From Paenibacillus sp. FSL K6-1330 (lineage in GTDB: Bacteria; Bacillota; Bacilli; Paenibacillales; Paenibacillaceae): a stretch of 64,000 nucleotides of DNA. This document shows positions 19,080 through 49,625 of the stretch, piece by piece. Within the stretch, counting starts at the first letter, position 1. Each line of letters begins with the position of its first letter. The stretch spans positions 4,291,501-4,355,500 of the forward strand of contig NZ_CP150269.1 of NCBI RefSeq assembly GCF_037976825.1. The letters are read 5' to 3'. The notes below the pieces were generated by a model that was not told where the DNA came from, made no database searches, and saw nothing but the letters and a program-made list of their open reading frames with translations. A program made the translations under genes and the position numbers.

Positions 19080-19129
19080 AAAAAATCCTGATTACAAAAA
19101 ATGAGAAACATTTTCTGTAATCAGGATTT
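19080..19129 (-). terminator. Long-hairpin terminator of the VOC gene
   Basis: The arms AAATCCTGATTACA and TGTAATCAGGATTT enclose a loop that itself contains AAAAT/ATTTT pairing. On the minus strand the stem is followed by seven T residues. It separates the VOC gene from the MFS gene. Confidence 0.7.
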
Positions 19130-19230
19130 TACGGTTCCTGGTAGAGACCCTCAGACCATATTAATGAGGTTATACATTCAAAATATTTTATTCAGTCGCA
19201 AAACAATCGTTGTTTAATTTATCACATCCG

Positions 19231-22465: not shown

Positions 22466-23671
22466 ATGACCAGAACACGAGAGACCATCTTTATTATCGC
22501 CTTTACTTTTGCAGCCTTTGTACTTGGTACTACCGAATACGTCATTGTTGGATTATTAAAAGACATCAGTGTAAGTCTCAGCATTTCGCTTGCTGCAGCC
22601 GGTGTCCTCGTATCCAGCTTCGCTATTGCTTACGCCATCGGAACGCCGTTTGCGGTCACGCTGCTCGGACGTATTCCTCGGCATGTTACCATTCTGACAG
22701 CGTATATTGCGGTGTTATTGTTTAATTATTTGACCATCTTTGCCACCACGTACCCCGTCATGTTATTCATTCGCATCATCACCGCGATTTTGTGCGGATT
22801 AACTTTATCGCTGGCCATTGCCGCAACAAGCGAGCATATGAGCGCTTCCCGCAGGGCTGGCGCGGTTGCCTGGATCATCGGAGGTTTCTCGATTGCGAAT
22901 GTCCTTGGCGTTCCTGTCGGAACGCAAATCGGCCAGATGGCCGGATGGCAAACGGCTTTCATTGTTACATCATTGGTCGGGATCATCCCGCTAGTTTTGA
23001 TGATGGTTGTCATGCCCAAGAGCAATACCATTAGCGTAAGCTCCATGAAACAGCAATTTGCCTTGTTCAAGAACAAGCGGATACGACTTGCCTTCTTCAT
23101 TCCGGTCCTTGGCGTAGGCTCTGTATTTATCGTATACACGTACATAACGCCGCTTTTAGAGAATGTAATGGGAATTCCGCAGCAATGGATCAGTACCGTT
23201 CTGCTGGCCTATGGCGCCTTCACCATTCTTAGTAATTGGCTCGGGGCCAAGGTAGCGCAAGGAAATTCAAGGGTAAAATTGAAAGTGATTTTCATCATCC
23301 AAGCGATGATTATGATGGCGCTTGCTCTTACCCTATCACTCCCGTGGATGGCCTTAATGTCGTTAATGCTGGTCGCCTGCTTCTCCTTTGCGCTCAGTAC
23401 CGCCGTTCAATTATACCTGATTGACCTAGCGGATGAATCTTCAGCTGGCTCCAAGGACTTCGCTTCTACACTTATGCCGGTCGCATCCAATCTGGGCATC
23501 GCCGTTGGTTCTCTACTGGGCAGCCTTGTCGTGGATAACGTTGGTCTCGAATATCTGCCTTGGGCTGCCGTTGTGTTCGCAATCGGAGCATTTGCCGTTA
23601 CCTCCCGCTGCCATCAGCTGGATCAAGAGCATATGGGTTTAACGCCTCTGGCATCGGCAAAGGCTTCGTAG
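22466..23671 (+). CDS. MFS transporter, DHA1-type exporter
   Basis: A 401-aa membrane protein with twelve helices, of the AraJ/YdhP type. The N-terminus TIFIIAFTFAAFVLGTTEYVIVGLL is characteristic. A motif-A-like segment IGTPFAVTLLGRIPRH and a motif-C-like segment SIANVLGVPVGTQIG follow. AGGAG lies 12 bases before the ATG. It is divergent from the aminotransferase gene and probably shares a control region with it, and it is followed by a strong terminator. Substrate unknown; export of small metabolites or drugs is likely. Confidence 0.9.
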   Translation: MTRTRETIFIIAFTFAAFVLGTTEYVIVGLLKDISVSLSISLAAAGVLVSSFAIAYAIGTPFAVTLLGRIPRHVTILTAYIAVLLFNYLTIFATTYPVMLFIRIITAILCGLTLSLAIAATSEHMSASRRAGAVAWIIGGFSIANVLGVPVGTQIGQMAGWQTAFIVTSLVGIIPLVLMMVVMPKSNTISVSSMKQQFALFKNKRIRLAFFIPVLGVGSVFIVYTYITPLLENVMGIPQQWISTVLLAYGAFTILSNWLGAKVAQGNSRVKLKVIFIIQAMIMMALALTLSLPWMALMSLMLVACFSFALSTAVQLYLIDLADESSAGSKDFASTLMPVASNLGIAVGSLLGSLVVDNVGLEYLPWAAVVFAIGAFAVTSRCHQLDQEHMGLTPLASAKAS

Positions 23672-23776: not shown

Positions 23777-23815
23777 AAAAAGCTTACCCGTTATGTAACG
23801 GCGTAAGCTTTTTGT
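23777..23815 (+). terminator. Strong intrinsic terminator of the MFS gene
   Basis: Stem AAAAGCTTAC/GTAAGCTTTT continuing into CCGTTA-TG-TAACGG, followed by TTTTTG. The repeat array begins eleven bases further on. Confidence 0.9.
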
Positions 23816-23825
23816 TTTACTGTTA

Positions 23826-24470
23826 TTCAGTTTATCAGGCATGCTTGAATGACTGTCGACTATATGCCGATTAGCCGTGTACAAATTTCCTTATTACGAT
23901 TCCGCCATCCAACATTGTTAAAGTCCATGGATTTGCGATATTTGAGGACACTGATTCCGCTATTTCATTGGTTTTACGCTTTTCGTAGCAATATGTGGAC
24001 AAGAGATCCGTTATTGCGGGATAATTGGGGGATTAACCCGTGATTATGGTGCAATAGCGGATCCCGTGTCCGCATGAACTCCATAATGGGCTGATTTCGA
24101 CAAAATAACGGATTCTCTGTCCTCATGATCTCCATATTGGGAGAATTCCAGTATATAGCGGAGATTACTCTGTCTGCATGTGCCCCAAAGTAAGCCGATT
24201 TCCGCAATATAACAGATCCTCTGTCCCCATGATTTCCATATTGGGCGAATTTGAGCATATGACGGGACTCTTCTGTCCGCATGTGCCCCAAAGTAGGCTG
24301 AATTCCGCAAAATAACAGATCCTCTGTCTGCATGATCTCCATATTGGGCGAATTTGAGCATATGACGGGACTCTTCTGTCCGCATGTGCCCCAAACTAGG
24401 AAGATTTCGCCGAAATAGCGGATCCTCTGTCCGAATATACCTAATTTATCCTATTTTTGCGTATAACTGC
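23826..24470. repeat. Repeat super-unit 1 (head type A, n = 3)
   Basis: The most diverged head. The palindrome spans 23995-24073. Monomers follow at about 24053, 24103, 24154, 24206, 24257, 24311, 24361 and 24415, in the order X0, X, Y, X, Y, X, Y, T. Dimers starting at 24206 and 24311 are almost identical and 105 bp apart, showing recent tandem duplication. Confidence 0.8.
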
Positions 24471-24776
24471 AATTCATTTCAGCAGCGATAGCCGTGTACC
24501 GAATCCCACATTATGATCCGCCACCCGACATCGTTAATGTCTATCGAGTTTCGATATTTGAGGACACTGGTTCCGCTATTTCCTTGTTATCACCCATTTC
24601 GCAGTAATATGCGGACATGAGATCCGCTATTGCGAGATAATTGGGGGGTTAACCCGTGATTATGGTGCAATAGCGGATTCTGTGTCCGCGTGAACTCCAT
24701 AATGGGCTGAATTCGCCGAAATAGCGGATCCTCTGTCCGAATATACCTAATTCATCCTATTTCTGCGTATAACTGT
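24471..24776. repeat. Repeat super-unit 2 (head type B, n = 0)
   Basis: The minimal unit: head, palindrome 24611-24689, X0 at about 24670 and T at about 24720, with no X-Y dimer. Head type B carries CTATCGAGTTTCG and GTTATCACCCATTTCGCAG where type A has CCATGGATTTGCG and GGTTTTACGCTTTTCGTAG. Confidence 0.8.
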
Positions 24777-25186
24777 AATTCAGTTCAACAGCGATAACCG
24801 TGTACCGAATCCCTCATTATGATCCGCCACCCGGCATCGTTAATGTCCATGGATTTGCGATATTTGAGGACACTGGTTCCGCTATTTCCTTGGTTTTACG
24901 CTTTTCGTAGCAATATGTGAACATGAGATCCGCTATTGCGAGATAACTGGGGGATTAATCCGTGATTATGGTGCAATAGCGGATCCTGTGTCCGCATGAA
25001 CTCCATAATGGGCTGATTTCGGCGATATAACGGATCCTCTGTCCTCATGTCCTCCATATTGGGCGAATTTGAGCATATGACGGGACTCTTCTGTCCGCAT
25101 GTGCCCCAAAGTAAGCTGAATTCGCCGAAATAGCGGATCCTCTGTCTGCATCTGCCCAATTTGTCCGATTTCTGCGTATAATTTTT
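24777..25186. repeat. Repeat super-unit 3 (head type A, n = 1)
   Basis: Head, palindrome 24917-24995, X0 at about 24975, one X-Y dimer (about 25026 and 25076) and T at about 25130. It exceeds super-unit 2 by 104 bp, exactly one dimer. Confidence 0.8.
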
Positions 25187-25556
25187 ATTCAGTTCAGCAG
25201 CGATAACCGTGTACCGAATCCCTCATTATGATTTGCCACCCGGCATCGTTAATGTCTATCGAGTTTCGATATTTGAGGACACTGGTTCCACTATTTCCTT
25301 GTTATCACCCATTTCGCAGTAATATGTGGACATGAGATCCGCTATTGCGAGATAATTGGGGGATTAACACGTGATTATGGTGCAATAGCGGATTCTGTGT
25401 CCGCATGAACTCCATAATGGGTTGATTTCGGCGAAATAACGGATCCTCTGTCCTCATGTTCTCCATAACGGGCGAATTCCAGTATATAGCGGGGCCTCTT
25501 CTGTCAGCATGTACCCCAAAATAGTACGTTTCCCGCATATAGCGGTTCTTCCCGCG
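25187..25556. repeat. Repeat super-unit 4 (head type B, n = 1, degenerate end)
   Basis: Head, palindrome 25326-25404, X0 at about 25384, X at about 25436, a diverged Y at about 25486 and a truncated last monomer at about 25538. It ends about 30 bases from the stop codon of the Cys-rich protein gene. Confidence 0.75.
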
Positions 25557-25584
25557 TCGTCCTACTGTTCGATGGATGCCTTAC

Positions 25585-25917
25585 TTAGGCAACCATCTCC
25601 CGGCATACTTTCGCACATCGGAAGCATGCTTCAGCACATTCCTGGCAGTGCTTCATATCATGCTTCTTACACTCGTTGCCACATGCTTCACAGACATCGG
25701 CGCAGATCCTGCATATTTCTGTGGCATACATACTGTTCGTGGACAGCGCTTGAGCAGCAAATCCGCAAATATCCGCACACTGCCGGTCCAAGCGAATGCA
25801 TTCTTTCATCATCGCCACATCATGTTCATCCAAACATGCGGTGTAACAATGGTTACAGGCTATCATACAGCGCAAGCATTCCTCGATACATTGTTGAACT
25901 TGTTCATGTGACATCAT
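25585..25917 (-). CDS. Four-helix-bundle Cys-rich protein (DUF326), copper-storage-like
   Basis: A 110-aa protein with 16 Cys arranged in CxxxC pairs along four helices (CIEECLRCMIACNHCYTAC, CADICGF, CRICADVCEACGNEC, CQECAEACFRCAKVC). This is the pattern of DUF326/Csp-type copper-storage proteins, in which Cys thiolates lining a helical bundle bind Cu(I). There is no signal peptide, so it is cytoplasmic, as in the Csp3 group. AAAGGAG lies upstream. The promoter may be minus-strand TTGACA (25957-25962), a 19-bp spacer and TAAGAC; the long spacer would suit a MerR-type activator, but this is speculative. Confidence 0.87.
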   Translation of the reverse strand: MMSHEQVQQCIEECLRCMIACNHCYTACLDEHDVAMMKECIRLDRQCADICGFAAQALSTNSMYATEICRICADVCEACGNECKKHDMKHCQECAEACFRCAKVCREMVA

Positions 25918-26141: not shown

Positions 26142-26792
26142 TTAAGTTAACCAGCCTTCACATGAATCCGCCAAACTCTGCAAATCTTGAAAGAACATGC
26201 TGGCATGGTAACCATCACACACAGCATGGTGCACCTGCAATGAGACTGGGAGCAGAATACGGCCACCCTGCTCGATATATTTTCCTCCGGTTATGATAGG
26301 AAGAAGATAGTCTGCTTCATTGACAATGTTTAGATTAAATCCGCTAAAGCTTGCCCAGGGTATCATGGATATGGGAAACGTGTTCAGCGGTGGATTCTCT
26401 TTAACGAAAATCCCTTTTGCATCCCGATAACGCTCCATGTCCTGCTCGTAATGATCGTGAAATCGATAGAAATCATTCGAACATGCTGTCCATAAACAGG
26501 AGAAGGTATGGTCATCATTATGGAAAAAAGTATAGCTTGGCGTCATCCGATCCCAGTAACCCAATTCCCCTTCGGGACTATAGGACGTTTTGAATTCGAC
26601 CCGGTTATTGACAACCCTGGTAACCATATAAATAAAAGCAGGATAAAGCTTGAATCCATTAGCTTTTAACGAATACAGCAAGCGAGTAATGTCGATATCC
26701 ACGGTAATGCTAAAGGTACATTTATTCGATCGATAATGCTCGTAATAAGGTTTTCTCGTCCACTGTTCAACATCTATAATATGAAATTTCAT
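26142..26792 (-). CDS. cat: Chloramphenicol O-acetyltransferase (type A)
   Basis: A 216-aa enzyme of normal length for trimeric CAT, which acetylates the 3-hydroxyl of chloramphenicol using acetyl-CoA. The catalytic motif HHAVCDG (188-194) has His189 as general base, and Ser148 sits in the conserved WASFSGF. N-terminal features (ID.E.W.RKPYYEHY) and TFFHNDDHTFS are typical. The gene is preceded by a short leader peptide and a hairpin that hides its AGGAGGG ribosome binding site, as in inducible Gram-positive cat genes. No mobile-element genes flank it, so it appears chromosomal. Confidence 0.93.
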   Translation of the reverse strand: MKFHIIDVEQWTRKPYYEHYRSNKCTFSITVDIDITRLLYSLKANGFKLYPAFIYMVTRVVNNRVEFKTSYSPEGELGYWDRMTPSYTFFHNDDHTFSCLWTACSNDFYRFHDHYEQDMERYRDAKGIFVKENPPLNTFPISMIPWASFSGFNLNIVNEADYLLPIITGGKYIEQGGRILLPVSLQVHHAVCDGYHASMFFQDLQSLADSCEGWLT

Positions 26793-49016: not shown

Positions 49017-49212
49017 TCGGTACCTGAGAGTTTATGATCGACCGCTTCTTGTTTTCGGTTCGACCTTTCCCCTTGGGTGGCTTGCGCACTCTCCAGAGCT
49101 GCGTCAGATGGCGGTTCGTTTACCTGAGAGATTACTCGTCAGCCTGGCAGGCGTAACGGTTTGCTCCTTCGGTGCCGCCAAGGTTTGAACCTTCTCGTGG
49201 CGGTCTCTCCCA
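49005..49212 (-). promoter_or_regulatory. Tandem glycine riboswitch of gcvH
   Basis: Two glycine aptamers read on the minus strand. The first runs from GGGAGAGACC (49211 downward) through CGAAGGAGCAAA to CTCTCAGGTA (49121-49130). The second runs from CTCTGGAGAGTGCGC (about 49097) to CTCTCAGGTACCGAGGACAG (ending near 49011). These are the hallmark conserved elements. Glycine binding is expected to permit gcvH expression. Confidence 0.93.
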
Positions 49213-49416
49213 TCCATCATCATCCGCATATTCGGTTGGCTTATTCTCCCACAGAATAAAACAGGGATGCAGTGATGTCAAGATATCTGACAAAAATTTT
49301 AAGAATGAAAATATTTTGGTGAAATAAAGGTTGACACTTTATGGAGAGGCACGTTTATAATAATCACAAGAACGTAGAATGATCTGACAACTCAATAATT
49401 TTCACGCGGATGATGG

Positions 49417-49625
49417 TAGCGGGAGAGATTACCGACAAGATTGACAGGTAGCGCCGAAGGAGTAAGCCGTAACACGGTGAATCTCTCAGGCAAAAGGACC
49501 TTTACCGGACGCACCTCTGGAGAGAATTCTGAATGTAGAATCACCCACGGGGAAACTCACACACGCTTGACATTATACTTACATGACATGTGGGGTAACT
49601 CTCAGGTACAAAGGACAGAGCAGAA
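49417..49625 (+). promoter_or_regulatory. Tandem glycine riboswitch of gcvT-gcvPA-gcvPB
   Basis: Aptamer 1 spans about 49417-49508 (GCGGGAGAGATTACC, CGCCGAAGGAGTAAGCC, ATCTCTCAGGCAAAAGGACC). Aptamer 2 spans about 49514-49622 (CTCTGGAGAGAATTC ... GTAACTCTCAGGTACAAAGG, then ACAGAG). The second aptamer has a longer, variant P3 arm. An ORF that runs through this region into gcvT has no ribosome binding site. Confidence 0.94.

Follow-up and report, generated by a model that had tools for sequence, protein, structure and literature searches.

A dispersed 185-bp element of four 22-bp sites with helically phased A/T content forms an array between converging genes in Paenibacillus

Introduction

Among the described repeats of bacterial genomes, the REP/BIME sequences, and BIME-2 in particular, come close to the subject of this study: an array at positions 23826..25556 of a 64,000-nucleotide stretch of the Paenibacillus sp. 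FSL K6-1330 genome (contig NZ_CP150269.1; hereafter the window), whose unit is a 185-bp palindrome made of four 22-bp sites. Like REP/BIME, as generally described (in part in PMC6379681 and PMC2817692), this element is dispersed, extragenic and palindromic, is composed of sub-units in opposite orientation, varies in tandem number, lies near the 3' ends of genes and forms mosaic arrays. Unlike REP/BIME, it has an asymmetric 22-bp site, a fixed 51/61/51 spacing and an A/T phase of 10.25 bp, and it has no hairpin sub-unit kept by pairing. A link through the REP-associated RAYT transposases was tried and found no support; the genome has one Y1_Tnp gene, with no site match within 1.5 kb, and no RAYT-like gene was found near the elements.

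The gyrase motif of E. coli (PMC6379681) is symmetric and about 130 bp long, has G/C variation phased at 10.75 bp, and belongs to gyrase acting downstream of transcription units. The element resembles it in being long and symmetric with a base-composition phase of about 10 bp. However, the gyrase motif is degenerate, whereas the element carries four base-specific sites and is phased at 10.25 bp; it does not match a ~130-bp motif with a 10.75-bp phase, the signal at 10.75 bp being positive but much weaker than that at 10.25 bp. In Bacillus, RemA and LrpC have been proposed to wrap DNA, RemA protecting six or more AT-rich stretches of 7 bp that stand 3 bp apart, with the DNA possibly wound round an octamer (PMC8481266). 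AT-rich segments phased at about 10 bp are found in the element as well, but the RemA and LrpC sites described there are promoter-upstream and poorly conserved and have no 22-bp operator. RemA as the sole cause was rejected, as RemA-family genes occur in 5/5 genomes, the element-free relative G004 included. The Bhal-1 family of Bacillus halodurans, a 74-bp intergenic stem-loop with 36 copies in this Bacillaceae genome (PMC2267715), may correspond to the inner part of the element.

CRISPR arrays have direct repeats with unrelated spacers, whereas the sites studied here run --++ and their spacers are alike in orthologues (cas genes were not searched). The BOX elements of pneumococcus are modular, with end modules and a variable number of middle modules; the element is likewise modular but of different sequence, and we know of no four-site dyad in BOX. 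The bcr1 repeat is reportedly specific to the Bacillus cereus group, to judge from the title of a paper cited in PMC2267715. Our literature search recognized no described element as the four-site element, although coverage of subscription journals was thin and earlier publication is possible. The element may come to be filed as a variant of interspersed intergenic repeats such as BIMEs.

Results

Architecture of the array

The repeat units of the array reduce to one asymmetric 22-bp site with the consensus WTARCGGAWYNNNTGTCCG, which occurs on both strands. The array holds 23 matches to this site at ≥15/22 positions, as compared with a mean of 0.22 and a maximum of 2 in 200 base shuffles; the rest of the window has 15 matches at ≥15/22 and none at ≥16. 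A preliminary description, made by a model from the DNA letters alone, had divided the array into four super-units with n = 3, 0, 1 and 1 copies of an X-Y dimer, and both the site positions and a comparison of the units bear this out. Each super-unit contains four sites in the layout (-)51(-)61(+)51(+), a nested palindrome of 185 bp, and the 79-bp palindrome reported earlier is present as the mere middle of this larger structure. Super-units 1, 3 and 4 continue after the element with extra + sites at steps of 51-52 bp, which super-unit 2 lacks, and the X-Y dimer is a pair of these extra sites. The features of the array are as follows.

23942..24126: element 1 (A-type), sites 23942-23963 (-), 23993-24014 (-), 24054-24075 (+) and 24105-24126 (+); non-site A/T phase p<0.0005
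24157..24436, + strand: extra sites of super-unit 1 (Y1, degenerate; X2, Y2, X3, Y3 and terminal), ~51-52 bp apart
24558..24742: element 2 (B-type), sites at 24558 (-), 24609 (-), 24670 (+) and 24721 (+, terminal-type outer site); no X-Y dimer
24864..25048: element 3 (A-type), sites at 24864 (-), 24915 (-), 24976 (+) and 25027 (+), from site matches and A/T phase
25079..25151, + strand: extra sites of super-unit 3, Y at 25079 and terminal at 25130
25273..25457: element 4 (B-type), sites at 25273 (-), 25324 (-), 25385 (+) and 25436 (+), from site matches and A/T phase
25488..25557, + strand: degenerate Y unit (25488) and remnant of the terminal unit of super-unit 4, the remnant read by eye

Start-to-start distances of the super-units are 616, 306 and 409 bp. 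Super-units 2 and 3 therefore differ by 103 bp (306 vs 409) and not by the 104 bp (306 vs 410) given before, and the dimer, put at about 104 bp, measures 103-104 bp, with the last units of super-unit 4 degenerate. The reported A-B-A-B alternation of heads is real, with left-spacer identities of 0.97 (super-units 1-3) and 1.00 (2-4) against 0.72-0.76 across types, but it does not extend beyond the left spacer and the 24 bp preceding it; in the loop and right half all pairs agree at 0.82-1.00. This restriction suggests that a block of two super-units was duplicated and homogenized elsewhere. Nor is the head common to all four super-units throughout, as the far-left part of super-unit 1 (-70..-26) is just 36-40% like the other three.

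Four-site geometry and the site centre

The same layout is seen in a family that extends beyond the window. Our geometry scan fixed only the inner site pair, at an allowed inner distance of 60-62 bp, and did not ask for outer sites. It gave 123 pattern matches in the scan loci; 8 of these, within 200 bp of a locus end, were dropped, and the 115 usable elements comprise 113 from named Bacillales-type genomes and 2 from viral contigs. Outer sites were found at 50-51 bp in 105/115 elements on the left and in 105/115 on the right, and the inner distance was 61 bp in 103/115. As a control, the best site of opposite orientation on the left reached the threshold in 27/115 elements, 9 of these at 51-52 bp. 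The order --++, or part of it, fits 129 of 131 site clusters, and the other two have one additional outside site. Among strong sites, the distances that recur at least four times are 50/51 bp on the same strand and 60-62, 110-113 and 161-164 bp for a - followed by a + site, while no distance for a + followed by a - site recurs that often.

The centre of the site (positions 9-13) is variable, yet in a comparison of 102 elements agreement within a genome is 0.61 even where spacers are <0.35 identical (16 pairs), as compared with 0.37 between genomes (1593 pairs). In a separate comparison, site centres match at 0.62-0.69 between elements of one genome, at 0.51-0.62 between the two arms of one element, and at 0.36-0.40 with other genomes. 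Since agreement is at least as strong between elements as between arms, the variable centre common to a genome points to a genome-specific partner that would act in trans.

Helical phasing of A/T content

After masking of the sites and of 3 bp around each, A/T content measured against distance from the dyad is phased at 10.25 bp in 101/101 elements (z 35.6). The same test gave z values of 30 at 10.0 bp, 28 at 10.5 bp, 12.3 at 10.75 bp and -1.6 at 11 bp. In the averaged element the A/T peaks lie at the site start, at 30-33 (A), at 41-44 (T), at 50-52 and in the loop. Each of the four window elements has a non-site phase with p<0.0005. Sixty bp beyond the element the phase is nearly lost (64/101 positive). 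A second set, consisting of Paenibacillus elements from other searches, was positive in 31/31 cases (z 21); it holds 31 of the 36 elements of the pairing test described below, from which the four window elements and one with a failed outer site had been excluded. Nine of these 31 are >80% like the first set (two are identical), and the test repeated on the other 22 was again positive in 22/22 (z 15.5).

The site spacings of 51, 61, 103 and 143 bp correspond to 4.98, 5.95, 10.05 and 13.95 turns of 10.25 bp, those of 306, 409 and 616 bp to 29.85, 39.90 and 60.10 turns, and 50 and 104 bp to 4.88 and 10.15 turns. Spacings this close to whole turns mean that array growth nearly preserves the phase.

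Distribution and genomic position

The preliminary description dealt with the array alone. The repetition itself stands, but its unit is a dispersed element of many genera, with fixed geometry and helical phasing. Outside the array, the window genome (one contig, 7.43 Mb) shows the four-site design at nine places: 295k, 527-528k (two), 733k, 4096k, 4188k, 4241k, 5314k, 5596k and 6969k, with one outer site weak or missing at 733k and 6969k. The genome as a whole has 65 single-site matches with ≤2 mismatches against 9 for the reversed pattern. At ≤1 mismatch, 16/59 relatives have a match and 11 have two or more (up to 25), with a control of ≤2 per genome. Class-wide, 26/299 genomes (own included) have a match and 7 have two or more; single matches there are at the level of the control, which itself matched in 13 genomes.

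Scanning named genomes for the inner pair yielded at least 120 stretches. Among the matches listed, the titles name Paenibacillus, Cohnella, Rossellomorea, Salibacterium, Alkalihalobacillus, Halalkalibacter, Aquibacillus, Anaerobacillus, Cytobacillus, Evansella, Texcoconibacillus, Scopulibacillus, Pseudalkalibacillus, Calidifontibacillus, Pseudoneobacillus and Bacillus. The lineage was looked up for two of these genera, which belong to the Bacillaceae and Sporolactobacillaceae of the order Caryophanales, and we take the remaining genera to be of the same order. Searches of plasmids and phages with the array gave no match. In IMG/VR two contigs carry one element each (L283 and L284), near phage-like genes and, in L283, a repressor-like open reading frame (ORF), the gene types being read by eye.

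The position test covered 109 elements, of which 7 are centred inside an ORF of 152-271 aa, 4 have no flanking ORF and 98 could be placed. The placed elements lie in convergent, tandem and divergent gaps in the ratio 38/50/10, as compared with 27/138/65 for the other intergenic gaps of ≥150 bp in the same loci (odds of 9.1 for convergent vs divergent, p 2e-8; mechanical ORF calls, with genomes contributing several elements), and 88/98 lie downstream of one neighboring gene or of both. A smaller count, also mechanical and covering 31 loci (some with a single site), gave 10 convergent, 17 tandem and 4 divergent. The window array was correctly placed between converging genes and after a terminator in the earlier description. 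Its surroundings are as follows.

22466..23671, + strand: MFS transporter gene, converging on the array (Pfam MFS_1, E 6e-34)
23777..23814, + strand: terminator-like hairpin with a T run, after the MFS gene and upstream of the array, read by eye; the same in genome G104 and near-same in G078
25585..25917, - strand: DUF326 gene, converging on the array (Pfam DUF326, E 2e-13)
26142-26792: chloramphenicol acetyltransferase family gene (Pfam CAT, family label only)

Elsewhere in the window we observed a Purine riboswitch (19098-19197, - strand) and divergent Glycine riboswitch aptamers, one on the - strand (49102-49223) and a tandem pair on the + strand (49410-49511, 49515-49620).

Across 122 loci, clustering of 897 ORFs in the wider neighborhood gave a largest cluster of 27 ORFs, spread over 20 loci. 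One representative was typed from each of the five widest clusters: a response-regulator type, an ABC ATPase, a sigma factor, a subtilase and an ABC permease, all common families.

Copy number and orthologous change

At the window locus the number of elements is 4 in the window genome, 2 in the same-species genome G104, 2 in G077, 3 in G078 and none in G004. At 527k it is 2 (window genome), 3 (G104), 2 (G077) and 4 (G078), counted as inner site pairs, one of which has a weak outer site. At 5596k the two same-species genomes have 1 and 2, the tandem copy having a period of ~390 bp and 87% identity, as a gain or a loss. The elements thus differ in number at three loci within the species (4 vs 2, 2 vs 3, 1 vs 2), which agrees with the earlier proposal that unequal exchange or slippage makes arrays grow at two levels, with the limit that G104 (30 contigs) is a draft, as is G077 (60 contigs), and repeats may be collapsed in drafts. 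A second step size, of 40 bp, is seen as sub-steps between sites in the G078 array at the window locus (L109:4027-4107) and as a tandem adjoining the 527k array of G104 (L288:2589-2698).

In seven comparisons of close relatives at five loci, changes numbered 28/613 in sites, 105/678 in spacers and 505/3490 in flanks, which is indicative of slower change in the sites than in spacers and flanks. Within a genome, spacers are <60% identical in 190/250 element pairs.

Discussion

A proposed DNA-level nucleoprotein site

On balance we favor the reading that the element is a DNA-level nucleoprotein site, in which a protein bound to four operators would wrap the DNA, and that arrays arise by tandem duplication. 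Fixed spacing, free spacers, strict A/T phase, genome-wide agreement of site centres and slow change of the sites together argue for wound DNA, and from these observations, the position bias and the copy-number differences we infer a bound protein, its wrapping, a boundary function and a route of array growth. A trans-acting, sequence-specific protein would bind the four 22-bp operators, which are set on one face of the helix at intervals of 5, 6 and 5 helical turns, and the DNA between them, A/T-rich every 10.25 bp from the dyad, would bend round the protein core to give a wrapped particle of ~185 bp, like a small nucleosome. Such particles, behind genes or between converging genes, may act as topological or transcription boundaries. 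With a second copy in place beside the first, 103-bp dimers and whole super-units would be gained or lost through slippage or unequal recombination between sites, changes that would keep the helical phase, and the window array may have formed in this way.

Several observations weigh against this reading. The phase test also gives positive scores at 12 bp (z 19) and 9 bp (z 9) and a negative one at 9.5 bp (z -7); these secondary scores probably come from the short, non-sinusoidal shape of the pattern. The periodicity of the whole array is partly a harmonic of the 51-bp repeat, and the weight lies on the site-masked test instead. The site-centre test had no separate control for genome base composition, the position test includes elements that share a genome and so are not independent, and the orthologous comparisons overlap; as their copies were located through the sites, the rate of change in sites is biased downward. 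In the close relative G004, site matches number 10 as compared with 9 for the control, and the element is thus dispensable. The 221 ORFs nearest to an element contain no recurrent gene family, the largest being present in 3 loci, and no candidate protein came out of the neighbor-gene analysis. Finally, the intragenomic near-copies at 4188k, 4241k and 5314k also fit a mobile element.

Alternative explanations

The chief rival is a non-autonomous mobile element resembling miniature inverted-repeat transposable elements, with two transposase or recombinase sites per end, phased DNA bends in the transpososome and arrays as a secondary product. We consider it unlikely, although it would account for the patchy distribution and, if each genome had its own enzyme, for the genome-specific site centre. 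The near-copies include a 437-bp segment at 5314k (L112:2980-3416) that is like the 4188k-type locus and whose two flanks lie on different contigs of G104, a junction that may mark a rearrangement. The L110, L111 and L112 loci and their orthologues share a left flank with a CATATG-centred repeat, along with degenerate repeats of ~20 bp on the right, so that in this sub-family the copied unit exceeds 185 bp. However, no clean empty site or target duplication could be made out at the loci examined: 20-kb tiles at guessed positions in G078 and G004 gave no match for 4188k, synteny was broken at 4241k and 4096k, and the intergenic stretch at the empty G004 locus is too diverged for a target-duplication call. 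Conservation tapers after G19 of the outer site, with no fixed terminal bases, no neighboring gene recurs, the single Y1 transposase gene stands apart from site matches, and copies persist at orthologous places with their sites conserved.

A preferred site of DNA gyrase, as in BIME-2, where gyrase would wrap phased DNA downstream of genes in regions that gather positive supercoils, is less probable still. In phasing and symmetry the elements resemble the E. coli motif, and their place near 3' ends parallels that of gyrase downstream of transcription units (PMC6379681), but the period is 10.25 bp (z 35.6) and not the 10.75 bp of that motif (z 12.3 in the elements), four strongly base-specific sites are foreign to it, and the element is absent from relatives such as G004, in which gyrase is assumed.

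A structured RNA, such as a bidirectional terminator or a stabilizer of mRNA 3' ends, seems very improbable. One super-unit folds far better than its shuffles on both strands (z -5.5 and -5.8), and the convergent bias would suit such a role, but four like sites in two orientations account for the strong fold. Spacers within one element pair no better than spacers across elements (p 0.83, 36 elements), and these cross-element controls removed the RNA hairpin as a candidate. Column-wise pairing in 98 non-redundant elements with an inner distance of 61 bp (45 of them 51-61-51) showed little excess in the spacers and none in the loop, what excess there is falling in the variable centre of the site, and compensated changes inside the site make up just 4/170 changed pair-cells. 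A search of the array against Rfam gave no family at cut-off; mir-5595 alone appeared, at 23-27 bits where the cut-off is 100. Because spacer sequences vary between species with at most weak pairing, an RNA stem is unlikely. The array had first been suggested to serve as a DNA-structure, protein-binding or RNA element, and these data favor its DNA and protein parts, not the RNA part. Tandem repeats are prone to mis-assembly and G104 and G077 are drafts, but an assembly artefact can practically be dismissed, as four separate assemblies, of which two comprise one or two contigs, have arrays with different element numbers at this place.

Implications

Beyond the preferred reading of a wrapped nucleoprotein site, we tentatively propose a broader one, which we hold with less confidence: a nucleosome-like positioning element across an order, with four operators 5-6-5 turns apart, a dyad-centred 10.25-bp A/T code and a genome-specific protein, that would mark convergent gene ends and stack in phase. 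The 10.25-bp period is near that of the eukaryotic nucleosome, and to our knowledge no sequence-encoded nucleosome-like positioning elements are known in bacteria beyond loose preferences. If the proposal is true, a four-site element that is base-specific and carries an exact helical code would have been kept across several families while its spacers drift, and it would offer an entry point to an architectural protein, to chromosome boundaries where genes converge, and to the growth and shrinkage of phased repeats.
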